From: a virus
DNA length: 32,031 bases
Strand: one strand, 5' to 3'
IMG/VR virus record: IMGVR_UViG_3300021964_000286
Span: 1 to 32,031 of that record
The position numbers and the translations under genes were made by a program. The stretch's first letter is position 1. Every line of letters starts with the position of its first letter. Below, piece after piece: positions 1,801 to 28,519 of the stretch. A model generated the notes under the pieces. The model was not told the DNA's origin and did not search any database. It saw nothing but the letters and a program-made list of their open reading frames with translations.

Positions 1801-2349
1801 TTAATCCCTATAAAAACCCGAGACTTGCATTGTAAATTTATCTTTTTGACCAGCATTTGCTGAAAGATGTAGTACTGAACTGTCCCATAGCCAAGCTTCC
1901 CCTGCTTTCCAATCAACAGAAGTTTTCCATTTATTGTTTTCGTGAATGTCTTGGTACTGAATCATATGACCTATTTTCCAGTCTTCAAGGTACATATTTA
2001 ATCTAACTTTTGTTCTCTTGTCGTCCGGGTATAATTTTTTAAATTTAAAGAATGTATCTCTATGTAGTGTTATTACGTTGCCAGGAGGTTGCATAATAGT
2101 AGATATTGTTTTAATCTCCATGTTTAATTTATCTTCCCATCCTTCAAATATTTTGTCTTCCGGATCATACCAAAGCTGCTGTATAACAGTGTTGTTTTCA
2201 TCATAAGAGTACCCATCACCGTATTCTGTGTATAAATCGTTCTGCTCTACTCTTTGGTACGAGAGACACGATCCTTTATGTGCGTTATAGTCCTGATTAG
2301 GTGGAAGAAAATAACTGTAGTCAAAATCTAATTTAATTTTTTCTAACAT
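1801..2349 (-). CDS. 2OG-Fe(II) oxygenase, single domain
   Basis: A 182-residue enzyme of the 2-oxoglutarate/Fe(II) dioxygenase fold. The iron triad is visible: LHRDTF gives H96 and D98, and SSVLHLSANAG gives H161. K171 in the following DKFTMQVSGF segment is a candidate 2OG-binding base. The PPGNVITLHRD and EDWKIGHMIQ stretches match a family common in marine T4-like phages. The substrate is unknown. In cellular proteins this fold hydroxylates amino-acid side chains, and in this window the gene closes an operon of a prolyl hydroxylase and glycosyltransferases (six bases after the fucosyltransferase-like gene). A role in modifying the same polypeptide or glycan is reasonable inference; nucleic-acid demethylation is the main alternative. 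Confidence 0.8.
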   Translation of the reverse strand: MLEKIKLDFDYSYFLPPNQDYNAHKGSCLSYQRVEQNDLYTEYGDGYSYDENNTVIQQLWYDPEDKIFEGWEDKLNMEIKTISTIMQPPGNVITLHRDTFFKFKKLYPDDKRTKVRLNMYLEDWKIGHMIQYQDIHENNKWKTSVDWKAGEAWLWDSSVLHLSANAGQKDKFTMQVSGFYRD

Positions 2350-2355
2350 ACTTTT

Positions 2356-3411
2356 TTATTTATTATAGAAATAGTCTTTTATAGCATCTAAGTGCTCTTT
2401 ACTATAAATATACACTCTTATGTCTTTTCCTATTGCTAAGTGTTCTTTCTCTGTTAGTAGGGTATGCAGCTTAGTATATTCTTTCTGGTAATAACCTATA
2501 TCGTCAACTTGAAGGTTTGGTTTATAGTAAAGTTTTTCAGTATTTTTTTTTCTAATTTCTAATGACTGTGGGCTATGACTATGGTAGTGCCATGGTTCCC
2601 AAAACGGTAAATCAAATTGGTGTACATCGATGTTGGGGTTAAGAAGTATCGAATATGTGGAAACGTTAGACTGTTGTCTAATAAGTAAATCACATCTTGA
2701 TAATAAAATAGACTCTATTAAAACTTGCTCACCGTAATCAATATTATCTTCATTAAAGATAGTTTCGTGTAAAGCTACTTTTTCAAAACTGATATCTAAT
2801 CTAGTACTAGAATAAAAAATTATTTTACTTTTAAATTTTTCTTGAAGTCTATTAATTACAAATAAATTGTCAGTAGCTACAAATACTCTACCGTAGTCAG
2901 TTAGTTTGTTTTCGATAAGTTTTTCAAAATAACTTATTGGTAGATTGGGTCTTCCTTTGTCAAAAAAACTATCAGTACCTCTTATATGTATACCTACTAC
3001 TTTACCTTCAAAATGCTTCTGTATAAAATTTTCTACTTTTTTTAAAATATGCGGTCTAACTTTTAAATAGTTTTTAACCGTGTTAGAATGTATTTTTAAT
3101 TCTTCAACTGATTTTTGATATATGTGCAGGCTATGGTCGTATGGTGCACCTACTAGTTCCATTCTAAATAGAAGATTAGGAGCTGGTTGGGGCTGTATAA
3201 AATACCTATCCCAAGGATTAGTTTGAAAATATTTATCTTCTATACTATGAAACCCAGTAATTTTACCAGAAAGGTCCATATAAGGTTGAACATCCTCATC
3301 CGGTATGTAATTTCTAAGTTCTTCTACCATTACTATATACTGTAATATTAATGAGTGTAATGCTCGTCTATGTCCTGATGGTGCAAACCTAGCTAAATTT
3401 CCTATATCCAT
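2356..3411 (-). CDS. Fucosyltransferase-like GT-B glycosyltransferase
   Basis: A 351-residue protein with the signature of the NodZ / O-fucosyltransferase superfamily. VVGIHIRGTD (138-147) provides the H-x-R-x-x-D motif that binds the GDP-sugar phosphates; NPWDRYF (65-71) resembles the conserved 'W.YFF' segment; FVATDN (177-182) and LLSRCDLLIRQQSNVSTYS (236-254) match the C-terminal Rossmann part. The classic N-terminal GGLGNR loop is not evident, so the acceptor half is divergent. The expected reaction is transfer of fucose, or another GDP-sugar, to a glycan or Ser/Thr. It lies one base after the carbamoyltransferase and six before the oxygenase. The C-terminal 90 residues (after WEPWHYHSHSP) are unrecognised. 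Sugar specificity cannot be read from sequence. Confidence 0.75.
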   Translation of the reverse strand: MDIGNLARFAPSGHRRALHSLILQYIVMVEELRNYIPDEDVQPYMDLSGKITGFHSIEDKYFQTNPWDRYFIQPQPAPNLLFRMELVGAPYDHSLHIYQKSVEELKIHSNTVKNYLKVRPHILKKVENFIQKHFEGKVVGIHIRGTDSFFDKGRPNLPISYFEKLIENKLTDYGRVFVATDNLFVINRLQEKFKSKIIFYSSTRLDISFEKVALHETIFNEDNIDYGEQVLIESILLSRCDLLIRQQSNVSTYSILLNPNIDVHQFDLPFWEPWHYHSHSPQSLEIRKKNTEKLYYKPNLQVDDIGYYQKEYTKLHTLLTEKEHLAIGKDIRVYIYSKEHLDAIKDYFYNK

Positions 3412-3412
3412 T

Positions 3413-4975
3413 TTATTTTTTTATATAATATTTTTCTAACACTAACCCGTCGAGCCTAGTATTCTCTAACAGGTAAAAAGCATCTCTATATGTGTTTAAT
3501 ATAGGCTTACCTGCTACATTAAAAGATGTATTTAAAAGTACTCCAATACCTGTCTTTTCATCTAGCTTCGTTAACAGTTCATAAAGGTATTCATTTTGTC
3601 CCTGAGTAACTGTCTGCACTCTAGCAGTATCATCTACATGAGTTATAGGTTTTAATTTATCTTTATATTCCGGTCTAACTTTAGGAGAAAATGACATCCA
3701 TCTTGATTCTTGATTAAATTCAAAAAACTTATTTACGTCTTCTAATCTAACTACCGGAGCAAAAGGTCTATAGTACTCTCTATTTTTTACTTTTTCGTTC
3801 AATATACCTTTCATATCTTCAATGCCGGGGTAACATATTATACTTCTATTACCTAAAGCTCTAGGACCTATCTCAGAACCTTCATTTACTATTCCTATAA
3901 TACTACCTTTTAATAAATCTTCGATTAGTCTATCTGTATCTATAGAAGCATTAGTATTATAAAGGTGTTCTGATAATGTCTGTTTATCCCATACCTCTGG
4001 TCCTTTATATGTTACGTCTACCTGTTCTGAAGGTTGTAGATAGTGTAGCATAAACCCTAAAGAAAGTCCGCAATCATTTGGATTGGGAGGTACAAATGTT
4101 TTTATTTGGTTGTTAACAGCTGTGTTATTAAGTATATTTAATGCACAACCACCAGTCAGAATTAGATTATTGTTTGCTATTTCTCTAATATGAGTAGTAG
4201 TGTTCATAAAAATATCCTCAAATACATGTTGGGATGTTCTTACTATATTTTTTTCTAATTCACCGGAAAGTTCGTCTGGGAGTTTTAGTTTATCTTTTAG
4301 GTATTTATAATTTTCATATCTTGTTTGTTTAGTCATATGGTGTCCTTTGTAGTATTCTTGCAGTACATCAACGTACTCTTCTACTACTTCACCATACCCG
4401 GCTAGCCCCATTAATTTACCGGCATACACTAAATAAGCATTTAACCAAGTATCTTTTCTTATTGAATTACAATGGTGTCCTATTTCAGCATACTTTTCTC
4501 CTATATTGTAATCGTAGTTCTTATCAATAAGTTTAAGTCCATTTTTTCTATTACAGCTATAGTAATTATAACAGCCATCATTACCTCCTCCATCAAACGA
4601 TATTATAATAGCATCATACAGATCTGATTGATAAAATGCACCTGCTGCGTGTCCTTCTTGGTGAAATACCTCTATTAATTTTTCAGCACTAAAATATTTT
4701 AAGATACCTTTTTCAGAATCTAACAATCTAGAAAGTGCTCTTATATCATCTTGATTTGCAATTAAATTTAAATACCTTGTGGCTTTATACTTAATTTTAA
4801 AATACTGTAATATTCTTGAAATTACTTCTAAAGGTTCATAAGCAGGTATATACCATAAAAGTCCGGCATTTTTAGTATTTGTAAAACGTTCTATTTCTAC
4901 TATTTCTAAAACTTGACCATTTTTAGCTAATGTTATAGAAGCATTGTGACCTGTATATATAGCTATGTTAAACAT
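3413..4975 (-). CDS. NodU/TobZ-family O-carbamoyltransferase
   Basis: A complete 520-residue carbamoyltransferase. The N-terminal Kae1-like domain begins with YTGHNAS and VEIERFTN (26-33) and carries FHQEGHAAGAFY (104-115), with the metal-binding histidines H105 and H109. SFDGGGNDG (126-134), LTGGCALN (273-280) and PNDCGLSLG (299-307) are the ATP/carbamoyl-adenylate region. The YrdC-like C-terminal signature EIGPRALGNRSI (368-379) and YYRPFAP (401-407) is intact. The family makes carbamoyl-adenylate from carbamoyl phosphate and ATP and carbamoylates hydroxyls of sugars and antibiotics. Phage members have also been reported to carbamoylate 5-hydroxymethylcytosine in DNA. Its position between glycosyltransferases (8-bp overlap upstream, one-base gap downstream) favours a glycan acceptor; DNA remains the alternative. 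Confidence 0.93.
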   Translation of the reverse strand: MFNIAIYTGHNASITLAKNGQVLEIVEIERFTNTKNAGLLWYIPAYEPLEVISRILQYFKIKYKATRYLNLIANQDDIRALSRLLDSEKGILKYFSAEKLIEVFHQEGHAAGAFYQSDLYDAIIISFDGGGNDGCYNYYSCNRKNGLKLIDKNYDYNIGEKYAEIGHHCNSIRKDTWLNAYLVYAGKLMGLAGYGEVVEEYVDVLQEYYKGHHMTKQTRYENYKYLKDKLKLPDELSGELEKNIVRTSQHVFEDIFMNTTTHIREIANNNLILTGGCALNILNNTAVNNQIKTFVPPNPNDCGLSLGFMLHYLQPSEQVDVTYKGPEVWDKQTLSEHLYNTNASIDTDRLIEDLLKGSIIGIVNEGSEIGPRALGNRSIICYPGIEDMKGILNEKVKNREYYRPFAPVVRLEDVNKFFEFNQESRWMSFSPKVRPEYKDKLKPITHVDDTARVQTVTQGQNEYLYELLTKLDEKTGIGVLLNTSFNVAGKPILNTYRDAFYLLENTRLDGLVLEKYYIKK

Positions 4976-5897
4976 TAAGTACTTTACAGTTTTTAATATC
5001 TATATTAGCAAAATTCTCATAATCTGCTAATGTACGTTTCGAGCCTAAACCGTAGCTACCTAAATCTTCTTCAAATACTAACTTTTTTAATCTCTCCATA
5101 GCAACACTTGAATGTTTATGTACAACTTCTTCTGTGTTAGTATTATAGTGTTTATCCGGTGTTTTTGGATGAGCTCTATGCCATGCAATAATTTGACTAG
5201 GTGTATAAATATCATATCCGTGAGTATAAGATCTTATAGCTAAAGCAAATTCTTCTCCTGTGTAATAGTGTAGTGGGTCTTGTTCTACTTCCTTAACCCA
5301 TTTACCTGAGCTAAATATAAATCCTCCGTATAGTACCTTTATATTTACAGGTCTAAAATTAGTGTCTTGTATATTGTTATAACCTCCGTACACAGGCCAG
5401 TATTGGTGAGATATACTACTTATAATAGGAATATTTAATTTAGATATATCATCTAAGTAGTCCAAGCTTAAGTCTATACCTTTTTCATCGTCTCTTGAGT
5501 AACAGGGCGGTAAAAAAGATATTAATGGCTTTTCTACACCCGCCTCCTTTAAATCTTTATAGTCTTTTATAACTATTTCATCCCATCCTTTTATAAATCT
5601 AGAATGAGAGTCAACTTGTAGTGAAAATTTTTCTCCATTATAATTTTGTTGTGCTATATTTCTAGCCCAGCAACCTCCTTTTGAATCTTTATAGTAATAT
5701 TTATCTACTACTATGTTATACTTTTTAACTAAATCATCTACACAATGTTCATTAGTCTTATCTATGTCATTATATTGTAGGCAAATTGAAAACAGTAAAT
5801 TATCTGGGTGTTTAGCTTTGTTTATACAGTCTAGTATAGTGTGTCTAATCTCGTAATCTATATAGCTAGCTATAGCTACAAATATAGTGTTCTTCAT
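4968..5897 (-). CDS. GT60-type polypeptide GlcNAc-transferase-like enzyme
   Basis: A 309-residue GT-A enzyme matching the Skp1/mucin GlcNAc-transferase family (CAZy GT60) from memory. It has the N-terminal TIFVAIASYID (4-14), CWARN (76-80), SLQVDSHSRF..GWD (92-106) with D96-S97-H98 as the DxH metal motif, LYGGFIFSSG (189-198), a TGEEFALAIRSYTHGYD stretch (213-229) and IIAWHRAH (236-243). Characterised members put GlcNAc on hydroxyproline of Dictyostelium Skp1 or on Thr of trypanosome mucins. Here the likely acceptors are hydroxylated Pro or Thr in the proline-rich virion proteins (inference). The start overlaps the stop of the large glycosyltransferase by 4 bp (ATGA). The C-terminus of that upstream protein is a second copy of the same domain, so a duplication or fission occurred in this lineage. 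Confidence 0.82.
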   Translation of the reverse strand: MKNTIFVAIASYIDYEIRHTILDCINKAKHPDNLLFSICLQYNDIDKTNEHCVDDLVKKYNIVVDKYYYKDSKGGCWARNIAQQNYNGEKFSLQVDSHSRFIKGWDEIVIKDYKDLKEAGVEKPLISFLPPCYSRDDEKGIDLSLDYLDDISKLNIPIISSISHQYWPVYGGYNNIQDTNFRPVNIKVLYGGFIFSSGKWVKEVEQDPLHYYTGEEFALAIRSYTHGYDIYTPSQIIAWHRAHPKTPDKHYNTNTEEVVHKHSSVAMERLKKLVFEEDLGSYGLGSKRTLADYENFANIDIKNCKVLNV

Positions 5898-8608
5898 AGC
5901 TTGAGCTTAATTTTAAAATATTCTTCTAAATCTTGCAAAGTCCTCTCATGTCCTTCTTCCATTATAGCGTCATTAAGCAGTTTAACAGAATTATCAGTAT
6001 TATTTAAATTAGTATTATGCTCCCTGTAAGGTGTGTTCGTATCAGAGGTCTTATAATTATAGTTATGCCAAACTACTGCTTCAGAGCATGTCCTTAAATT
6101 CCACCCTTTTAAGTAGCTTATAAATGTTTGGAAATCCTCTTCTCCGGAAAATCTTATAGAATTAGGTAGTCTAACCTCTTTTGTCCAGTATGATCTAGTA
6201 AACAAAAATCCAGCAGCACACCATTCAGTCTTAAAAGGTGTCATTTCTTTATGTGAGGGATAATTACCAGCTTTACATCTGTTATCGGTTTCAGAGTCTG
6301 GGTATAAAAACTTATTAATTCTAAGCGGTGCATTATAAGGTAGCTCAAGATACTTTTCTTCATCATCAGGTACGTGGTACTCATTTGGATACGTTGTAAG
6401 TATGACTTTAGGTTCTTCTATAGAGTTGTACTGGTTTATTAGAATTATATCCCAATTTTTTTTAAATCTAGAATGAGAATCTATCTGTAGGAAATAAGGT
6501 TCATTATTAATTAAATCTTTAATTTTATTTCGTGCATCTACTACACCTGATGCATCTTCTTTTTTAGTAAATATAATTTTAAGATTTTTATAATTAAGCT
6601 GTTTTAATTTTTCGTACGTAGATTCCGTATCTTGTAAGTTTACACAAACAGTTAATCTATTTGGGTTAGACACATATTTATATAAACTTTTTAAAGTATT
6701 GAATATTTCTGAGTCACTATAGCTTGCTATAGATACAAAAATTCTACTCTTATCAACGCTCCATACATTTAAAAACTCTCTTCCCCAACCTCCGTATATT
6801 TGCTGTGTTTCTTCAAACATTTTATCATTTTTTTGACTATACGGTTCTGTGGTTATTAAATATCTAGTATCTGCAATGTCATTCATATACCCTCTCAATC
6901 TATATACATAAGATGATAAAGTAGAAAGTTTTGTACCGATAAAGCTTTTACTTCTAGAACATATTAGTTTTTCAATTATAGGGATCCAATTATTCTGTAT
7001 ATCTACGTATGGGTATTTACTAACTATATCATCGTAAAAGTGTACCTCATATTTTTCTATTAACGGTTTAAAAAATTCTTTATCTTGATGATCAGTAGCT
7101 ATATATAGTTTAGAACCATTAGGAACTTGATCTTTTATGTTTTCATAAATAGTTTCACATGGTATATGTAAGTCTTTATATTGGAAATCGTTTCTTCTTA
7201 CATGAATTGAATAATACTCTTGATCTCCTAACTCGTTTATAAACAACCAGCTAATATCAAAAATAATATTTTTAAATCTTAAATGATTACACACTAACTC
7301 TTTTAACTGCTCTATCTGTTTAGTATAAAGTATCTGGTAGAAATTCCCTAATAGGTTTTTGTCAAAATAGACATACCTGTTGTCAATTTCATCAAACATA
7401 TTAATATATTTTCTACCTTTTAAGAATTTTTGAGGAGGCGCTAAAGGTTCAAAATTATAAACTAAATTATCCGTAGGGGTATCAAATACTTGACAGATTT
7501 CTTTTATTTCATTAAACTTTTCTACTTTATTTTCTATTTTTGCAAATTCATCGTAGTCTAACCATTTAATACCTAAATCATTAAAATCAAAGAAGTCTTC
7601 TAAACTACATTCTCCTTCTAGTAAATAATAGGACTGTTTAGTAGGAATCACTAATGTTCTATTTAAAAGATAACTTATACAGGCCGCTAATTCAAAAGAC
7701 ATTCTTATATTATTGAATCCACCTGGCCATTTTTCAAATAGTATATACCCATCGTCACCGGTATAAAATTTAAAAATATGCTCTGAGTTTGTCTGTATAT
7801 AGTACCTGTAATTAGTTCTTTCTTGATCTATATTCGAAAGAAGCATATTATCAAATAAATTTCTAGATCTTGAACATTCTATAACTTCGTTTGGATTAAA
7901 AGTATAGTCTTGTTTAAAAAATATTTTATCCCCTTCTATTGTATCTATTTGATTAGGGTAGTGAATAATAGAAGCTAGGTTCTTAGACTCATCTTTATTC
8001 CAGGCTGTGCATCTACCTAGATTTTCTATGTACTCTATATCTATATTATGCTCAACTGCAGCATCATCTAATCCGTACATTTCTGAAATCCATTCTCTTG
8101 TGTCTTTCCTATACTTGATGCATTTTTCTTTATATGTGTCAACAAACTTTACTAAGGTACTAAACTTCAACGCAAATGGGTACATAAAAGCTTTTCTCTC
8201 GGAATCCCTGTAAGCATCAATCCATTCTTGAGCTATAATTTGATTTTCATTAGGGAATAAATTTATAGGCTCCAAAAATATCATATCAGGATCTAGAAAT
8301 AGTAGAGTATCGTCAGGGTTAAATTCTCTATTATCTGTAAGCCATTTTATAGCTTCATACTTGTTGGGGATTCCACCCCACCATTCTCCTTCATTAATTT
8401 CCCATTCTTTTGCCCAGTCGGGTAGTTCGTGTATTTCTATAGAGGGGTCAAAATTAAAGTCTGTAGTTTCTCCGGCGTGGTTAATATCGTCAGATAAGAG
8501 AAGTATAAGTTTACCTTCCTGGTTGGTCTTAAGCATAGACCAGTATAAACACCTAATCTGCCATTCTTGATACTTGCATTTGCTAGTACTTACAACTATA
8601 TAGTCCAT
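5894..8608 (-). CDS. Three-domain glycosyltransferase (HPAT/SGT1-like + O-FucT-like + GT60-like)
   Basis: A 904-residue fusion. Domain 1 (about 1-235) resembles the plant/algal HPAT/SGT1 group that attaches arabinose to hydroxyproline or galactose to Ser in extensins: KYQEWQIRCLYW (12-23), GGIPNKYEAIKWL (78-90), LLFLDPDMIF (102-111, D106-P-D108) and REWISEMYGL (171-180). Domain 2 (about 270-590) resembles O-fucosyltransferases: GGFNNIRMSFELA (296-308), NRTLVIP (316-322), IHVRRND (468-474) and GTKLSTLSS with LRGY (558-574). Domain 3 (about 620-904) is GT60-like: FVSIASYSD, FLQIDSHSRF (706-715), GEEDFQTFI (822-830) and VVWHNY. All three appear intact. It lies two bases after the hydroxylase gene. 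Building successive sugars on one polypeptide site is inferred from the domain content; individual donor sugars cannot be assigned. Confidence 0.82.
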   Translation of the reverse strand: MDYIVVSTSKCKYQEWQIRCLYWSMLKTNQEGKLILLLSDDINHAGETTDFNFDPSIEIHELPDWAKEWEINEGEWWGGIPNKYEAIKWLTDNREFNPDDTLLFLDPDMIFLEPINLFPNENQIIAQEWIDAYRDSERKAFMYPFALKFSTLVKFVDTYKEKCIKYRKDTREWISEMYGLDDAAVEHNIDIEYIENLGRCTAWNKDESKNLASIIHYPNQIDTIEGDKIFFKQDYTFNPNEVIECSRSRNLFDNMLLSNIDQERTNYRYYIQTNSEHIFKFYTGDDGYILFEKWPGGFNNIRMSFELAACISYLLNRTLVIPTKQSYYLLEGECSLEDFFDFNDLGIKWLDYDEFAKIENKVEKFNEIKEICQVFDTPTDNLVYNFEPLAPPQKFLKGRKYINMFDEIDNRYVYFDKNLLGNFYQILYTKQIEQLKELVCNHLRFKNIIFDISWLFINELGDQEYYSIHVRRNDFQYKDLHIPCETIYENIKDQVPNGSKLYIATDHQDKEFFKPLIEKYEVHFYDDIVSKYPYVDIQNNWIPIIEKLICSRSKSFIGTKLSTLSSYVYRLRGYMNDIADTRYLITTEPYSQKNDKMFEETQQIYGGWGREFLNVWSVDKSRIFVSIASYSDSEIFNTLKSLYKYVSNPNRLTVCVNLQDTESTYEKLKQLNYKNLKIIFTKKEDASGVVDARNKIKDLINNEPYFLQIDSHSRFKKNWDIILINQYNSIEEPKVILTTYPNEYHVPDDEEKYLELPYNAPLRINKFLYPDSETDNRCKAGNYPSHKEMTPFKTEWCAAGFLFTRSYWTKEVRLPNSIRFSGEEDFQTFISYLKGWNLRTCSEAVVWHNYNYKTSDTNTPYREHNTNLNNTDNSVKLLNDAIMEEGHERTLQDLEEYFKIKLKL

Positions 8609-8610
8609 AC

Positions 8611-9843
8611 TTAATCCGGTTGGTATATGTAGTCTGCTAATCTATAATGAGTGTAGAAATTTCTGAAGTAATTACCTTTAAATGGAGTAGGTCTACCGTG
8701 CATACATGTTGCTGATTCGTAGAGTATAATTTCTCCTATCTCAGCATAAACTTGGTGCCAGTCACCGTTATGATCTTGGAATTCAAGCGGCCAGTCGTTA
8801 GGTACTCCTTTTGTTTGATTGCAACCACAATCAAGATCTTTATCTACAATAATAATACTAGATACGTGATGTGTTTCAAGTCTATCTGTATGGTTTATTA
8901 ATGTAGCATCTTTATTATACGATCTTATACCGTATAACGCTGCAGGTTCAATATTTAACCCGCCGCAGAATTCTTGATGAATAGGTTTTAGCTCTTGTAA
9001 AAGTAAATCCCTTATACTAGTTAAACCATCAAAAGACATCATCTCTGCAGGAATTTCACCTCCGTCTAATATTTCTCTACCTACACCTTGTTCAGGTACA
9101 GGGCTATTTTTAAGTAGTCTGTATGCGTCTTGAATAATACCCCATGCAGTTGGTGGACAAGTAGTGACTTTAAAACCTAACTCAGTTATTTTTGGAAGGT
9201 CTTCTTTTGATCTATATGTAATTAAATTTTTAGACCTGTTATCTTTATTTTGCCAGTACTCACCTGAAAGTCTAGTATCTTCTGCTGGTTGCCATTTATT
9301 CTCTCTCCACCAGGAAGTAATGATATACTTTTTACCGTTTAAAACCTCTGTTCCTTCGTGTAAAGAGTTTGGTTGTAATTCCCCGTTTTCTATATCGTCC
9401 CAAACTACCGCCATCCCTGTCTTAGGTTTAACTGTTTTACCCAAGTTAGGAAAACTAGTTGCTCCTCCTTCCATATCGTCATTTAAAAATACCATCAATG
9501 TATTTGTCCTATTTCCTGATGCTAAGCAGTGGTTGTAATAAGAATCTCCTTCAAAGTAGTCAGTATGTGCTTTAAAATACTGTCCTGGTTCGTACAACTG
9601 TCCTTGAAGATCTTCTCCTTTTTCTATATCTAAATCTAAATATGCTGCTATTTTATTTTTTAATTTTTCAACAACTTTATCATCAGAAGAAAAAGTACAT
9701 GTAGAAGAAGTGCGGAAATCTGATTCTGTAGATTTTGTTCTGTCCGTACCTGCTACTTGTGATCTAACGTGATTTTTATCTATGAGATCTATAATATACT
9801 TACAGTCTTTTTTTGAAACAAAATTTTCTATTAAAGTAATCAT
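8611..9843 (-). CDS. Double-domain prolyl-4-hydroxylase-like 2OG-Fe(II) oxygenase
   Basis: A 410-residue protein with two oxygenase domains. Domain 1 (about 1-182) is a textbook prolyl-4-hydroxylase: FRTSST near the start, QLYEPGQYFKAHTDYF (82-97; H93, D95), LMVFLNDDMEGGATSFP (116-132), SLHEGTEV (160-167; H162) and KKYIITSWW with K172 for 2OG. Domain 2 (about 225-402) is a divergent copy with INHTDRLETHHVS (316-328; H318, D320), ESATCMHGRP (376-385; H382) and R394 in YFRNFYTHYR. The expected reaction is hydroxylation of peptidyl proline with O2 and 2OG. It is first in the operon, just behind a promoter at 9858-9886 and directly before the large glycosyltransferase. The proline-rich virion proteins 5-8 kb upstream are the obvious substrate candidates (inference). 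Confidence 0.88.
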   Translation of the reverse strand: MITLIENFVSKKDCKYIIDLIDKNHVRSQVAGTDRTKSTESDFRTSSTCTFSSDDKVVEKLKNKIAAYLDLDIEKGEDLQGQLYEPGQYFKAHTDYFEGDSYYNHCLASGNRTNTLMVFLNDDMEGGATSFPNLGKTVKPKTGMAVVWDDIENGELQPNSLHEGTEVLNGKKYIITSWWRENKWQPAEDTRLSGEYWQNKDNRSKNLITYRSKEDLPKITELGFKVTTCPPTAWGIIQDAYRLLKNSPVPEQGVGREILDGGEIPAEMMSFDGLTSIRDLLLQELKPIHQEFCGGLNIEPAALYGIRSYNKDATLINHTDRLETHHVSSIIIVDKDLDCGCNQTKGVPNDWPLEFQDHNGDWHQVYAEIGEIILYESATCMHGRPTPFKGNYFRNFYTHYRLADYIYQPD

Positions 9844-9886: not shown

Positions 9887-9892
9887 CTATTT
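9864..9892 (-). terminator. Intrinsic terminator of the tail-fibre operon
   Basis: Minus-strand sequence AAATAGT-TGT-ACTATTT (9892-9876) forms a perfect 7-bp stem with a 3-nt loop, followed by AATATTTTTT (9875-9866), a U-tract in RNA. It overlaps the stop codon of the S74 fibre gene and would end the long structural transcript. The stem is A/T-rich, so the strength is uncertain. Confidence 0.6.
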
Positions 9893-10708
9893 ACTTTCTA
9901 ATTTTTCTACTCTTTCTAATAATTCTTTATTAGATTGAATAAGTAGTGCTACTAATTTGTCATACTTAACAGCTTTATAACCATTTTTTCTAGTAATAAC
10001 TAATTCTGGTAAAACTTTTTCTACTTCTTGCGCTATAACTCCTATATCATGTCCTTCGTTAGAATGTATATCTTCTCTAGGTATCCAATTAAACTCTACT
10101 CCTTGTATCTTTTTTAATTTGTCCGTAGCGTTTAATATAGGTTTTATATCCGCTTTCAATCTTTCATCTGAAGAGTAGTAAGCTGTTATATCACCTGTTG
10201 CTCTAATTTCTCCAGATACCCCAGATGGAGATGTTCCGATACCTAAACAGTGGGACTGTAAATGGCTTGTAAATTGAGATGTACCGGTTCCTAATACGGT
10301 TAATAGTCCGTCTATTTCTGCACTACCTGTTAGTATAAGCGATCCTGTTATGTTTTGAGAACCTGAAAATATATTACTACCAGTTGTAGCATGGTCAGCG
10401 TTAGAACCAGATAGTACTCCTAATGTATTTATATAATTTAATACTCCACCTGTAAATTGAGAGTCGCTTGTATTAAGTGTTAAGGCCCTACTTGTAGTTA
10501 TATCTCCTCCGCCTGTTACTCCTCCTGTACCTGTTATACTTACAGCTGAATGGTCAATATGTTCATTAACTACAAAATTTGTAGTAGCATCATGGTCTAC
10601 TTGAGATGATCCGCTTAAAGTAGTAGTGAGTCCATAGAATCCTAAAGATGCTGTAACTGACCCAGTTACTATTAAAGAACCAGAAAATTCAGAGTAGTTT
10701 CTAGACAT
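9887..10708 (-). CDS. Tail fibre protein with S74 intramolecular chaperone
   Basis: A 273-residue fibre protein. Residues 1-175 are low-complexity beta-type fibre sequence rich in TGS/SGS steps (LTGSAEIDGLL, SGSQNITGS). Residues 176-273 are a peptidase S74 / endosialidase-type chaperone: SSDERLKADIKPI (179-191) with the self-cleavage Ser180-Asp181, FNWIPRED, GHDIGVIAQEVEKVLPE (219-235), YKAVKYDKLVALLIQSNKEL and a C-terminal coiled coil. In the family this domain trimerises the fibre and then cleaves itself off. Being the last structural gene before the terminator and having the chaperone make it a likely distal or short fibre. Its ATG overlaps the stop of the preceding fibre gene (TAATG). Confidence 0.9.
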   Translation of the reverse strand: MSRNYSEFSGSLIVTGSVTASLGFYGLTTTLSGSSQVDHDATTNFVVNEHIDHSAVSITGTGGVTGGGDITTSRALTLNTSDSQFTGGVLNYINTLGVLSGSNADHATTGSNIFSGSQNITGSLILTGSAEIDGLLTVLGTGTSQFTSHLQSHCLGIGTSPSGVSGEIRATGDITAYYSSDERLKADIKPILNATDKLKKIQGVEFNWIPREDIHSNEGHDIGVIAQEVEKVLPELVITRKNGYKAVKYDKLVALLIQSNKELLERVEKLESK

Positions 10709-14930: not shown

Positions 14931-15926
14931 TTATTCACATTCACTTGTTATTACTGCTGTACAAGTACTTGCACCTCCCTGTTTCACACCGTTTATAAAT
15001 GTGTAGAACACTGATGTATCAAACTCAGCAGTTACATATTTTGTTCCGCTCATTAATGTTGAACAGCCTAAACCGGTATAGTATCTAGTAGCCGAAGCTA
15101 AGCTAGAAGCATTAAAGTACCCTGCTTTAGCAGTATACTGTGGGGAACCACAACAACCGTAAGGTGCTGTTGTATCTTGGTATACGCTTATACTGTGGCA
15201 CGGTGTTACCGGAGCAGGTGTTGGACTCGGTGTTGGCGATAGTGTCGGACTAGGAGTAGGTGCAGGAGTTGTTGGTGCTTCTGTAGGTGAAGGAGTAGGT
15301 GCATCAGTTGGACTAGGAGTAGGTGCATCAGTTGGACTAGGAGTAGGTGCATCAGTCGGTGATGGGGTAGGTGCATCAGTTGGGCTAGGAGTAGGTGCAG
15401 GAGTTGCTGGTGCTGGTGTTCCTGTTGTTGGAGCTGGTGTTGGTGCATCAGTCGGTGATGGGGTAGGTGCAGCAGTTGTTGGTGCATCAGTTGGACTAGG
15501 TGTAGGTGCATCAGTAGGAGAAGGTGTTGGTGCTGAAGTAGGTGAAGGAGTTGTTGGTGCACTAGTCGGACTAGGTGTAGGTGCATTTGTCGGACTAGGT
15601 GTTGGTGCTGGAGTAGGTGAAGGAGTTGGACTAGGTGTTGGTGCTGGAGTAGGTGCAGGAGTAGGTACTATTAAGATCCAGTTTGCATTTACAGATGAAC
15701 CAGAACATTCGCCATTTTCAACTATAAACCTTGTAGTTGTAATATTATCATTATCGAAAGTAAGATTTACACAGTTTGCCAAAGAAGAGCTAGTAATCCC
15801 TGTAGCCGGTAGTCCGTTGCTTGTGAAAGTAGCAGACCCAGAAGGAGGCACAGCAGTAAACGTAGATCCAGAGTTAAGATCTATTCCTAGTGAACCGCTA
15901 AAGCAAAATTTTATATCTTGTGGCAT
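14931..15926 (-). CDS. Proline-rich (AP/SP/TP repeat) virion protein
   Basis: A 331-residue protein in three parts. Residues 1-87 form a small beta domain with Cys at 8, 52 and 74. Residues 88-242 are an almost uninterrupted X-Pro tract (X = Ala, Ser, Thr) built from an 8-residue unit DAPTPSPT and variants. Residues 243-331 form a Cys-rich terminal domain ([51 protein letters not shown]) resembling tip domains of phage adhesins. The tract should form an extended polyproline-II rod holding the tip away from the tail. Ala-Pro, Ser-Pro and Thr-Pro dipeptides are the glycosylation motif of plant arabinogalactan proteins, and hydroxylase and glycosyltransferase genes follow downstream, so the tract is a candidate substrate (inference). 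The start ATG is fixed by the reading frame and a 23-bp gap. Confidence 0.85.
15201..15665 (-). repeat. Tandem repeats encoding DAPTPSPT units
   Basis: Direct repeats inside the coding sequence. The main unit is 24 bp (8 residues), for example two adjacent identical copies of gttggactaggagtagg-type sequence between 15306 and 15354, then variants with synonymous changes. Shorter 12-bp PTPA/PTPS steps flank it. Related units occur in the neighbouring gene at 16595-17083, so slippage and recombination within and between the genes should alter the rod length. Confidence 0.85.
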
Positions 15927-15949
15927 TATTTATAAATACTGTTTTTCAA

Positions 15950-17764
15950 TTATATTGGAATTTTTGGTGCAGGAGTAGCTGGAGCAGGAGTTGGTGCAGC
16001 AGGAGCCGGTGTAGGAGAAGGTGTTGGTGCTGGAGTACCTTGACAATCTTCACAGCTAGTGTATGAAGTAAATGAAGTATAAAGTCCATCTACACCTGAG
16101 CCGGCAGCACTATCATACGTGAAACATACTGCTCCGGATTTTAACACGTTAGGGAATGTAGTACCAACAGTACCGTAAACATCTAACAAGTTGCTTGGAT
16201 CATCACAATCTAGATATCTTGCATAGTCAAAAGATACCGGTGATGGTGTAGGTGCATCTGTAGGTGCAGGAGTTGTTGGTGCACTAGTAGTTAATGGTGC
16301 AGGAGTTGGCGGTTGAGTAGCTACTGGTGCAGGAGTTGGACTTGGTGTAGGTGAAGTTGTAGGTGCAGGAGTTGCTAATGTACAATCATCATTATCAGTA
16401 CAACTTGAACCTAGTGAAGAAATTGTTAATCCAGATGCTAGATCTACTGGTAACGCTCTAGCACATACTCTATCTGCATCCCCGAACGCTATAGAAACCG
16501 GTGATATTGTTGCTCCGTCCGAACATCTTACGTAACTATACGTTCCTGTAGGATCTGCTCCTTCATTAGTTATTAAGTAACAGTTACAGGTATGCGTAGG
16601 TGCAGGAGTTGTTGGTGCAGGAGTTGGTGCAGGAGTTGGTGCTCCTGATGGTGCAGGAGTTGGTGCAGGAGTTGGTGCTCCTGATGGTGCAGGAGTTGGT
16701 GCTGCTGATGGTGCAGGAGTTGGTGCTCCTGATGGTGCAGGAGTTGGTGCAGGAGTTGGTGCTCCTGATGGTGCAGGAGTTGGTGCTTCTGATGGTGCAG
16801 GAGTTGTTGGTGCAGGAGTTGGTGCATCAGTTGGTGATGGGGTAGGTGCTCCTGATGGTGCAGGAGTTGGTGCATCTGTAGGTGAAGGAGTTGGTGCATC
16901 AGTTGGTGCAGGAGTTGTTGGTGCATCAGTTGGACTTGGTGTAGGTGCATCAGTTGGACTTGGTGTAGGTGCATCTGTAGGTGAAGGAGTTGGTGCATCG
17001 GTTGGACTTGGTGTAGGTGCAGGTGTAGTTACTGGTGCAGGAGTTGGCGATGGAGTTGGTGCTGTAGTAGGTGCTGGTGTAGGTACTGATTCGTTTGATG
17101 CGCTAATTGCAAAATGACAAAAGAATGATTGCTCTATTAATAAGTAGTTATATAATGTGTTCCCTGTTTCATCATATTTAAAAGCATTAGATACGTTTAA
17201 TTCACCACTTGACAGTTTCATTTCACTACCAGAAAACTCTCCATCGTATTTAGGTTCTTCTTGATTGTGATATGTATACGTTGCAAGCCCGTCTGGTGTA
17301 ATAACAGATTCACTATACGCTGTTGAATAGTTTGTAGAAGAGCCAAAAGTTCCTCCATCGCTTCCTGATCTACTACCGCTATCAATAGATCCTGTAATAG
17401 TTATATCTCCTACAAATTGCTGTTTTACAGCACTATAATTTGTTGTATCAGTCAACACTAACGATCCTGATATGTTATCATATTCGCTACTTTTTATAGA
17501 TACCTGTGTTGTCTTATTTCTTTCTAAAAGGTGGGGCTTGATAATTATACCTGAACTCATATTAGTTCTGGCAGGTACAAAATCTTGAACACTTTTATAC
17601 AGTACATTATCGTAAAACTTCATTATTCTTGTGAAGTCTTGTAGATCATTAGAACCAGTAAGTATAATACCCAAGATAGCTTCCGACGAGGAAACTAGTT
17701 CAGCATAGCTACTTGAATGGGCATACCCAGGGTCCCCTATGTATTGATCTAAATTATAAGCCAT
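15950..17764 (-). CDS. Large proline-rich multi-linker virion protein
   Basis: A 604-residue protein. Residues 1-225 are a structural domain (NLDQYIGDP, FTRIMKFYDNVLYKSVQDFVPAR at 45-66, SSGIIIKPHLLERNK at 70-84) that, as I recall, is normally the C-terminal part of the preceding structural protein in related phages. Three proline-rich linkers follow (228-390, 465-509, 577-600) with two Cys-containing mini-domains between them: 391-464 (CNCYLITNE ... YVRCSDG ... CTDNDDC) and 511-576 (YLDCDDP ... AVCFTYD ... CEDCQG). The first linker switches from DAPTPSPT units to SGAPTPAP units. The layout is anchor, rod, mini-domain, rod, mini-domain, rod, as expected for a filament displaying binding modules. 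It is a candidate target for the prolyl hydroxylase and glycosyltransferases (inference). The ATG overlaps the upstream gene by 11 bp. Confidence 0.85.
   Translation of the reverse strand: MAYNLDQYIGDPGYAHSSSYAELVSSSEAILGIILTGSNDLQDFTRIMKFYDNVLYKSVQDFVPARTNMSSGIIIKPHLLERNKTTQVSIKSSEYDNISGSLVLTDTTNYSAVKQQFVGDITITGSIDSGSRSGSDGGTFGSSTNYSTAYSESVITPDGLATYTYHNQEEPKYDGEFSGSEMKLSSGELNVSNAFKYDETGNTLYNYLLIEQSFFCHFAISASNESVPTPAPTTAPTPSPTPAPVTTPAPTPSPTDAPTPSPTDAPTPSPTDAPTPSPTDAPTTPAPTDAPTPSPTDAPTPAPSGAPTPSPTDAPTPAPTTPAPSEAPTPAPSGAPTPAPTPAPSGAPTPAPSAAPTPAPSGAPTPAPTPAPSGAPTPAPTPAPTTPAPTHTCNCYLITNEGADPTGTYSYVRCSDGATISPVSIAFGDADRVCARALPVDLASGLTISSLGSSCTDNDDCTLATPAPTTSPTPSPTPAPVATQPPTPAPLTTSAPTTPAPTDAPTPSPVSFDYARYLDCDDPSNLLDVYGTVGTTFPNVLKSGAVCFTYDSAAGSGVDGLYTSFTSYTSCEDCQGTPAPTPSPTPAPAAPTPAPATPAPKIPI
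16595..17083 (-). repeat. Tandem repeats encoding DAPTPSPT and SGAPTPAP units
   Basis: A dense array of 12-, 24- and 36-bp direct repeats in the first proline-rich linker. On the plus strand the recurring words are ggtgcaggagttggtgc and ggtgctcctgatggtgcagg. The promoter-proximal half encodes Asp-containing units (DAPTPSPT); the distal half encodes Gly/Ser units ([20 protein letters not shown]). Smaller proline tracts follow at 16238-16372 and 15965-16036. Confidence 0.85.
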
Positions 17765-23851: not shown

Positions 23852-25117
23852 TTATGGAAGTTGGTTGTCTATTCTAAATTTTAATTCTTTTTTTAGTATT
23901 TCTTCAGAACTAGAAAAAGAATACGGCCCTTTTAAAACTGCTACTCCTCTTCTATCTAATGCTATAGCTCTTCTCCTTGGGGCTATAGATGGTGAGTCAG
24001 GGTCGTTTTCAATTCTTATGGTGTACTGTGTATTTCTAGCGTTAGTGTACGTTTCATCTGAAGTTCCTGTATTATTGTCTAAACCTGTTCCTTCGTATAC
24101 TTTGTCTCTATCTTCTTTACTAAGTCCTATACTATCTACGTCACTAAGTCCTGTACTATCTGCGTTACTAAGTCCTGTACTGTCTGCGTTACTAAGTCCT
24201 GTACTGCCTACGTCGCCTAAGAACCTATCCCAGTATTGCCCTATACCAGGCGGACCTGCTATACCGTCAGCTGTTGATGTGTGATCAGTGTTACACTTGT
24301 ACTTTAAAGTTTTATATGTAATAATATCGTCTACAGAATAGTCAACACCTACACCCCATAGTCCTCTATCTCTACCCCCGCTACTACCTGCACCGGTATT
24401 GTTTCCTGCTCCGAAAAATGCTTCGTTCACATCTTGTTCCAGAGTAGTTGTATGCTCTTCACCGTCGTTAAGTTTTCTTCTGAAGCTACCGGCAAATAAA
24501 TTTCTATTAGATAAATCGTTAGGGTCTAATAGTCTTGGATCTATTACCCTGGCTCTTTGATCGTCTGGTGCGTCTGGGTTATTTACACAGTGGTCTACTA
24601 ACCTGTCTAATTGTTTAAGTCTGTCTATTAAAGGGTCAAATATACCCTGTGTTGAAGATAGTACATCATTAATTGAGACTACATCATCTTCAAGTACCTC
24701 TACCATCTTTCTTGTAAATACAAGTAGGTTAGATTGGGCCTGTATTACCCCAACCGGTACAGATACTATAACTCCCCCATAAGGAGGCGGTATACCTATA
24801 GTTGACGGTAGCGGTAAGTGGGATAGTATCTCTACTATAACTTTACCTGCTCCTATAGCTGGTTCTAAAGTTTGAGGTATTGTATTAAACTTCTGTATCT
24901 TTTGGTCAAAGCTGTTAGCAAGAGTTTCAATAGATTGTTTTTGCTTTATAATTCTATTTAAAGTCTCTGGTGGTGGACACTTTCTAAGTAGTTCGTTTAT
25001 TATAGCGTTTAGCTTATCGTTGGCGTATCTGTAAATAGCAGCTTCTATTCGTCCCATTTGTGATGCTACGAAAGTTACTAAGTTACTTTTAAAATCTTTT
25101 AATAAAGCGTGTGGCAT
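23852..25117 (-). CDS. Baseplate structural protein with inserted chitin-binding-like module
   Basis: A 421-residue protein. Residues 1-200 are conserved-type structural sequence (LLKDFKSNLVTFVASQMGRIEAAIYRYA, LRKCPPPETLNRIIKQKQSI, LPLPSTIGIPPPYGGVIVSVPVG). Residues 252-299 look like a CBM5/12 chitin-binding module: RGLWGVGVDYSVDDIITYK, LKYKCNTDHTS and PGIGQYWDRF show the W..G..Y..GD.V.Y....Y.C...H.S......W spacing. Residues 304-335 are four imperfect copies of an 8-residue repeat (DSTGLSNA). The C-terminus (RRRAIALDRRGVAVLKGPYSFSSS) is again family-like. The module and repeat look like an insertion into a structural core, giving a surface sugar-binding function (inference). It overlaps the spike gene's stop by one base. 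Confidence 0.75.
   Translation of the reverse strand: MPHALLKDFKSNLVTFVASQMGRIEAAIYRYANDKLNAIINELLRKCPPPETLNRIIKQKQSIETLANSFDQKIQKFNTIPQTLEPAIGAGKVIVEILSHLPLPSTIGIPPPYGGVIVSVPVGVIQAQSNLLVFTRKMVEVLEDDVVSINDVLSSTQGIFDPLIDRLKQLDRLVDHCVNNPDAPDDQRARVIDPRLLDPNDLSNRNLFAGSFRRKLNDGEEHTTTLEQDVNEAFFGAGNNTGAGSSGGRDRGLWGVGVDYSVDDIITYKTLKYKCNTDHTSTADGIAGPPGIGQYWDRFLGDVGSTGLSNADSTGLSNADSTGLSDVDSIGLSKEDRDKVYEGTGLDNNTGTSDETYTNARNTQYTIRIENDPDSPSIAPRRRAIALDRRGVAVLKGPYSFSSSEEILKKELKFRIDNQLP
24113..24208 (-). repeat. Four imperfect 24-bp tandem repeats (DSTGLSNA)
   Basis: On the plus strand the unit is approximately actaagtcctgtactatctg plus cgtt, repeated at 24-bp spacing, with copies diverging at the outer ends (SIGLSKED, STGLSDVD). 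It encodes a hydrophilic Ser/Thr/Asp linker right after the chitin-binding-like module, typical of a flexible spacer that expands by slippage. Confidence 0.8.
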
Positions 25118-28400: not shown

Positions 28401-28451
28401 ATTAGATTAATTTTATAATTTACTATATATATTTATATACTTATATATTAT

Positions 28452-28459
28452 TATTTATA
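28452..28459 (-). promoter_or_regulatory. T4-type late promoter candidate before the tail transcript
   Basis: TATAAATA on the minus strand at 28459-28452, the T4 late consensus, 51 nt upstream of the HD gene's start and within a 119-bp gap (28401-28519) that is otherwise nearly pure A/T. It is placed to drive the entire 28.4-9.9 kb structural operon with the gp55-like factor. A chance match cannot be excluded in such A/T-rich DNA. Confidence 0.45.
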
Positions 28460-28519
28460 CTTTTATATATATTTTATTAATATATAAATTAAGATAATGA
28501 TTTTTCTTCAAAGAATCAA

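Follow-up and report, generated by a model that had tools for sequence, protein, structure and literature searches.

A putative phage cassette for hydroxyproline-dependent O-glycosylation of tail proteins

The IMG/VR virus record IMGVR_UViG_3300021964_000286 was analysed over its positions 1 to 32,031 (the window, 32,031 nucleotides), and its minus strand carries a glycosyltransferase (GT) protein together with an oxygenase, tail genes, and two proteins rich in X-Pro repeats. The GT protein is encoded by an open reading frame (ORF) at 5894-8608 on the minus strand, which starts with ATG and specifies 904 residues; the plus strand across this interval is full of stops and is non-coding. The original prediction, a model's reading of the sequence, had placed a 904-residue protein at these positions without giving a strand, and such an ORF was indeed found. 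Directly upstream on the same strand sits a two-domain 2-oxoglutarate (2OG)-Fe(II) oxygenase with an N-terminal prolyl 4-hydroxylase (P4H) domain, and the X-Pro repeat proteins lie about 5 kb further upstream. The features concerned are:

7814..8608, minus strand: HPAT-like (PF23452) GT domain, residues 1-265 (Pfam profile; invariant DPDM, residues 106-109)
6764..7813, minus strand: O-FucT (PF10250) domain, residues 266-615 (Pfam; invariant GGFNNIR and H-x-R-R; structural match to POFUT2)
5897..6763, minus strand: GT60 'GlcNAc' (PF11397) domain, residues 616-904 (Pfam; invariant D-x-H, 710/712; structural match to polypeptide GalNAc-transferase)
8611..9843, minus strand: two-domain 2OG-Fe(II) oxygenase, 410 residues (profile, structure, motifs in 89 homologues)
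about 9274-9843, minus strand: N-terminal P4H domain of this oxygenase
about 8614-9231, minus strand: C-terminal domain of this oxygenase, with an H-x-D...H motif
15950..17764, minus strand: 604-residue tail protein with X-Pro repeats (43 AP, 36 TP, 12 SP), proposed acceptor (sequence)
14931..15926, minus strand: 331-residue protein with X-Pro repeats (24 TP, 21 AP, 17 SP), proposed acceptor (sequence)

When the whole GT protein was searched, Pfam matched GT60 at residues 663-854 (4.5e-35) and O-FucT at residues 288-575 (4.7e-24). The isolated HPAT domain matched PF23452 at 1.4e-6 and 28.3 bits, above the Pfam cut-off of 23.9 bits; among 23 homologous domains the same profile matched 22 (best 1.5e-12), and no other GT family rivalled HPAT in match strength in this profile search. 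All of the motifs quoted in the original prediction were located: KYQEWQ (12-17), DPDMIF (106-111), and REWISEMYG (171-179) in the HPAT domain, GGFNN (296-300), HVRRND (469-474), and LRGY (571-574) in the O-FucT domain, and DSHSRF (710-715) and GEED (822-825) in the GT60 domain. Catalytic-type motifs are all invariant or nearly so among 22 homologues of the protein, with the DxD-type HPAT motif DPDM, the O-FucT motifs GGFNNIR and H-x-R-R, and D710 and H712 of the GT60 D-x-H metal motif kept in 22/22, in support of the claim that key residues are retained. An NCBIfam search returned no match for the GT protein or for the P4H, and tblastn of phage records gave weak single-domain relatives only.

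A structural model of the 904-residue protein, made with the 22-sequence alignment, had a mean predicted local distance difference test (pLDDT) score of 86. In a structure search with this model, and with Foldseek too, the O-FucT domain matched POFUT2, with its GT-B fold (281-283 residues at 20% identity, Z about 20). Matches of the GT60 domain were to polypeptide GalNAc-transferases (Z about 22, 257-260 residues, root-mean-square deviation about 3 A). These two domains dominate the match list of the whole model, which is uninformative on the HPAT fold; the HPAT domain's fold match is glycogenin (Z 16.5, 223 residues), which tells of a GT-A fold and nothing further. A PDB profile search with HPAT gave no relevant match, so this domain is without a solved relative by sequence, and the putative HPAT identity is assigned by profile only. 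Thus, the Pfam profiles, with structure matches for O-FucT and GT60, uphold the assertion that these are three families known mainly from eukaryotic protein O-glycosylation. HPAT-family enzymes transfer L-arabinofuranose (GT95) or galactose (GT96) onto hydroxyproline or serine, GT60 enzymes transfer GlcNAc from UDP-GlcNAc to Thr/Ser or hydroxyproline, and protein O-fucosyltransferases (GT65/GT68) use a GDP-fucose donor and a protein acceptor. As to whether the domains might instead fall into unrelated bacterial lipopolysaccharide GT families, O-FucT and GT60 land on protein GTs by both profile and structure, whereas HPAT does so by profile; a lipopolysaccharide GT reading was not adopted.

The oxygenase model (pLDDT 93) is closest in structure to Chlamydomonas P4H-1 in complex with (Ser-Pro)5 (182 residues aligned at 1.2 A, 32% identity, Z 27.4), and all PDB sequence matches of the N-terminal domain are prolyl 4-hydroxylases. 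H93, D95, H162, and K172 of this domain are kept in 89/89 homologues, and the domain thus has the HxD...H metal triad and 2OG-binding Lys of a P4H as well as the profile and fold matches. The C-terminal domain keeps H318 and H382 in 89/89 and D320 in 86/89. The Tyr preceding HxD in the Chlamydomonas enzyme aligns with Phe90 here, and because of this replacement the substrate preference of the window P4H may differ from that of the algal enzyme.

The remainder of the cassette lies downstream on the same strand:

4968..5897, minus strand: second GT60 protein, 309 residues (Pfam; forms an in-frame fourth domain of the GT protein in contigs L002-L005)
3413..4975, minus strand: NodU/CmcH-type O-carbamoyltransferase, 520 residues (conserved cassette partner)
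2356..3411, minus strand: weakly NodZ/FUT8-like protein, 351 residues (weak similarity)
1801..2349, minus strand: 182-residue protein (weak 2OG-oxygenase-like similarity; accompanies the cassette in many contigs)

In the direction of transcription, the two X-Pro repeat proteins come first, followed by conserved tail proteins, an S74-domain fibre (9887-10708), the oxygenase, the GT protein, the second GT60, the carbamoyltransferase, the NodZ/FUT8-like protein, and the 182-residue protein. The GT protein and second GT60 overlap start/stop by ATGA at 5894-5897, and the NodZ/FUT8-like gene is swapped for a weakly sulfotransferase-like gene in L002/L003 and absent in L004/L005. Relatives have larger single proteins in which the 647-residue tail protein runs on into a part homologous to the N-terminus of the 604-residue repeat protein, and the repeat protein is for this reason probably a virion component. 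The two ORFs overlap by 11 bases (17754-17764) in different frames where L153 and L202 have one continuous protein, and this overlap may reflect either a frameshift or a gene that is naturally split, with a coupled start. Judged by its baseplate protein, the nearest isolate is Flavobacterium phage immuto (57.7%), which has the same tail genes in the equivalent region, but without oxygenase, GTs, or X-Pro repeats. The original prediction had the enzyme's domain families right but missed the P4H, the X-Pro repeat tail proteins, the second GT60, and the carbamoyltransferase; with these beside it, the GT protein therefore has a likely acceptor. Elsewhere in the window, a 24-bp tandem repeat at 24108-24205 in the ORF 23852-25117 encodes an LSNADSTG-type repeat, and an AT-rich tandem repeat lies between ORFs at 28424-28485.

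Viral contigs were scanned with the HPAT, P4H, and O-FucT parts as queries, and an architecture table was then drawn up. Many contigs share the order P4H, then HPAT-FucT-GT60(-GT60), then carbamoyltransferase, with differing tail genes; the architecture is thus neither chance nor an assembly artefact, and the cassette appears to move between phages. In 16/18 phage contig clusters that extend at least 1.6 kb upstream, the HPAT ORF is immediately preceded by the P4H; 15 of these were counted by script, and one (L030) overlaps by a few bases; one contig, L038, was itself fetched through its P4H. The three-domain architecture is correct as originally described, but incomplete, since the GT protein of close relatives (1205-1206 residues) includes the second GT60 as a fourth domain. 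In L137 the protein gains a fifth, C-terminal domain, a PLOD-type GT, and PLOD-type GT domains also occur in or beside the cassette in L228 (5859-8681) and L229 (2399-4252); such domains are known from collagen hydroxylysine glycosylation. A NAD-dependent sugar-nucleotide epimerase takes the place of the P4H in the two exceptions, L122 (8209-9186) and L133 (8209-9186), and another lies next to or near the HPAT-FucT-GT60 protein in L229 (6959-7942); the best NCBIfam match of these epimerases is GDP-L-fucose synthase, far under its cut-off. Two further arrangements were seen. In L153 (12990-15781), two GT60 proteins adjoin an SP/AP-rich tail protein with no P4H nearby, possibly a hydroxyproline-independent version. 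In L041, L043, and L045, a two-domain P4H lies beside strongly X-Pro-repeat proteins with no recognised GT; could these be hydroxylation-only versions?

A scan of 84,980 genomes yielded four bacterial hits. In a Saprospiraceae metagenome-assembled genome (L228) and a Bacteroidetes single-cell genome (L229), the P4H is followed by a GT protein of 1516-1533 residues; in a Myxococcota metagenome-assembled genome (L231), P4H, O-FucT, and HPAT are separate neighbouring genes; and in L230 the HPAT is located at a contig end, next to a radical-SAM/PqqD/SPASM protein. A further Myxococcota genome from a phylum search (L242, G713 contig 431) has a P4H adjoining an HPAT-PqqD fusion (5124-6257, minus strand; PqqD match 6.6e-15). 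The P4H-HPAT link thus holds in each of the four bacterial loci for which the sequence extends far enough (L228, L229, L231, L242), and in the two Myxococcota (L231, L242) separate genes encode the two enzymes. The L229 and L231 clusters contain PT-repeat proteins with twin-arginine translocation (Tat)-like signals, as judged by eye, and another such protein, cut by the contig end, was found at the corresponding place in L242 when sought there after L229 and L231. Tat export of an already modified protein would fit cytosolic enzymes. PqqD is a peptide-recognition domain of pathways for ribosomally synthesized and post-translationally modified peptides, and its fusion to HPAT suggests leader-guided modification of the PT-repeat protein. 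HPAT was found in 1/395 genomes of a Bacteroidota sample and 2/379 of a Myxococcota sample, each count including its own centre genome, so the cassette is rare in cells. That these enzymes are linked to a PT-repeat protein in unfused, cellular form as well speaks more strongly than anything else for a functional association.

Sequence and structure together establish the domain identities, the conserved catalytic-type motifs, the linkage of P4H and GT, and the nearby X-Pro repeat proteins. On this footing, we consider it fairly probable that the window holds a phage cassette for hydroxyproline-dependent O-glycosylation of the phage's own tail proteins. Within the host cytoplasm, the P4H (8611-9843) would act first, hydroxylating the tail proteins (14931-17764) at prolines of their (T/A/S)-P repeats, a step in which we have considerable confidence. 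The HPAT-O-FucT-GT60 protein and the second GT60 would then add sugars to hydroxyproline and/or nearby Thr/Ser and extend them. It is quite likely that the multi-domain GT glycosylates the X-Pro repeats, and the placement of sugar on hydroxyproline, rather than just on Thr/Ser, is modestly favoured. We infer that the repeats serve as the acceptor and that hydroxyproline is modified by HPAT or GT60, and likewise infer the order in which the enzymes act. Subsequently, the carbamoyltransferase would carbamoylate the glycan, with further decoration by the products of the last, variable genes (NodZ-like or sulfotransferase-like). Donors for the O-FucT domain are possibly GDP-L-Fuc or GDP-L-Gal, and the benefit to the phage could be a rigid, protease-resistant, or antigenically variable tail.

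The association of P4H with Pro-repeat proteins was tested in contig clusters of at least 12 kb, and such proteins occur in 34/38 clusters with a P4H versus 11/42 without (p 6e-9), with p at most 4e-5 across all four thresholds tried. The original repeat definition, which overlooked PP-containing repeats such as those of L038, gave 24/36 versus 7/42 (p 8e-6). In a backbone-controlled subset, phages fetched by an unrelated tail gene, the figures were 4/4 versus 9/35 (p 0.009). Several points weigh against the proposal. The 34/38 result used a repeat definition relaxed after exceptions had been inspected, the contigs were retrieved with cassette queries and have common ancestry, so that they are phylogenetically non-independent and the p-values overstate independence, and the four phages of the 4/4 subset are close relatives. 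Some related phages have X-Pro repeats although no P4H was found in their contigs (L155, L166, L173, L180), while L160 and L227 have repeats plus single-domain P4H-type oxygenases elsewhere in the contig. No Pro-rich ORF lies within 10 kb of the cassette in L118, no recognised P4H accompanies the GT protein in L122 and L133, and in the window itself five other genes separate the repeat proteins from the P4H. In addition, the HPAT match of the whole window protein is near threshold (residues 4-218, 6.7e-5, 22.8 bits).

Perhaps the GT protein simply O-glycosylates Thr/Ser of the repeats in the manner of mucins, with the P4H hydroxylating proline for chain stiffness only and hydroxyproline bearing no glycan. 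Relatives of GT60 and O-FucT do include Thr/Ser protein glycosyltransferases, the GT60 domain is structurally near the mucin GalNAc-transferases, L153/L154 pair two GT60s with an SP/AP-rich protein away from any P4H, and many phages have a P4H and X-Pro repeats without a recognised GT (as in L041, L043, and L045). However, the HPAT enzymes of plants (PMC8012813) and a GT60-type enzyme of Dictyostelium (PMC8724618) act on hydroxyproline. The P4H is, moreover, fixed beside the HPAT-containing protein in phages, and also in bacteria with separate genes, so that we regard a mucin-like role as unlikely. Phage GTs commonly alter host surface glycans, and the variable last genes of the cassette (NodZ-like, sulfotransferase-like) recall surface-glycan loci; the GTs might accordingly modify the host surface or make a free glycan for receptor masking or superinfection exclusion, the P4H and repeat proteins being unrelated neighbours. 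Yet the cassette is without a predicted membrane anchor or lipid-acceptor GT family, its O-FucT and GT60 folds match protein glycosyltransferases, and the pairing with P4H is conserved and fixed, which makes this account decidedly improbable.

The least probable of the accounts, and a very improbable one, is that the oxygenase hydroxylates a DNA base which the GT and carbamoyltransferase then decorate, giving hypermodified DNA. In its favour, a related kind of carbamoyltransferase is reported to modify cytosine in phage DNA (PMC8670742), and a weak TAGT match (E 0.063) overlaps the GT60 domain. The oxygenase, however, belongs by sequence and structure to the prolyl 4-hydroxylase family and probably not to TET/JBP; Tet_JBP (PF12851) is not among its Pfam hits, and none was found in 12 cassette-bearing records, in a search whose control was likewise silent. 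The GT60 and O-FucT domains match protein GTs, and the cassette is placed among tail-fibre genes. DNA hypermodification was not adopted, given the P4H family of the oxygenase and the protein-GT matches, and glycosylation of hydroxylated tail repeats is the reading that we pursue here.

In its workings, that proposed pathway appears closest to the hydroxyproline O-glycosylation of plants and algae (PMC8012813) and to the cytosolic Skp1 pathway (PMC8724618). As in the plant/algal system, where P4H acts with HPAT/GT95 and SGT1/GT96, there is a P4H of the Chlamydomonas (Ser-Pro)n type and an HPAT-family domain, and the X-Pro repeat proteins resemble arabinogalactan-protein (AGP)/extensin modules; by contrast, the phage enzymes are cytosolic, with several GTs in one chain, and O-FucT, GT60, and a carbamoyltransferase are added. 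As in the Skp1 pathway of Dictyostelium and Toxoplasma (cytosolic P4H, pp-alpha-GlcNAcT), a P4H is followed by a GT60-type enzyme and GT steps are fused (PMC8724618), but in the phage a repeat tail protein, not Skp1, is the probable target, HPAT and O-FucT-type domains are added, and the phage cassette has no known link to oxygen sensing. Processive glycan assembly by a single chain, as suggested in the original prediction, is a hypothesis for which the Skp1-pathway fusions are a precedent in arrangement only. The O-FucT domain shares with POFUT2 (GT68) its fold and the conserved R-R and G-G-F-N motifs, and differs in being fused to other GTs and in having no known thrombospondin-repeat acceptor. 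Also comparable is a locus of Synechococcus phage S-SCSM1, in which an O-FucT is flanked by 2OG oxygenases and a carbamoyltransferase, with GDP-fucose pathway genes nearby that hint at GDP-sugar donors; unlike the window protein, this O-FucT is single-domain (26.6% identity) in a region without an HPAT or GT60 fusion, and no Pro-rich repeat ORF was seen in the 25 kb examined.

What is probably new here is the proposal, for a phage, of hydroxyproline O-glycosylation, which has so far been eukaryotic; searches of the open-access PMC literature turned up no account of hydroxyproline being glycosylated in either phages or bacteria. Prolyl-hydroxylase-like 2OG oxygenases are widespread in marine phages. 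Those studied have been confirmed as oxygenases with no target assigned (PMC12774648), and a role in DNA repair has been suggested (PMC2984593). The cassette would offer these enzymes a concrete target, the X-Pro repeat tail proteins, and a purpose, the creation of glycosylation sites. It is tempting to speculate further that phages and a few Bacteroidota and Myxococcota have complete cytosolic hydroxyproline O-glycosylation outside eukaryotes, in which phages would use a single-chain assembly line of three to five GT domains to build an AGP/extensin-like glycan on X-Pro tail repeats, and Myxococcota a leader-guided form (HPAT-PqqD) acting on a Tat-exported PT-repeat protein; we see this broader picture as evenly balanced between true and false. 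If hydroxyproline O-glycosylation does take place here, its range of plants, algae, and protists would widen to include bacterial viruses and rare bacteria, soluble cytosolic enzymes would become available for producing AGP- or mucin-like glycoproteins in Escherichia coli, and the cassette would bear on the origin of the eukaryotic HPAT, O-FucT, and GT60 protein glycosyltransferases.

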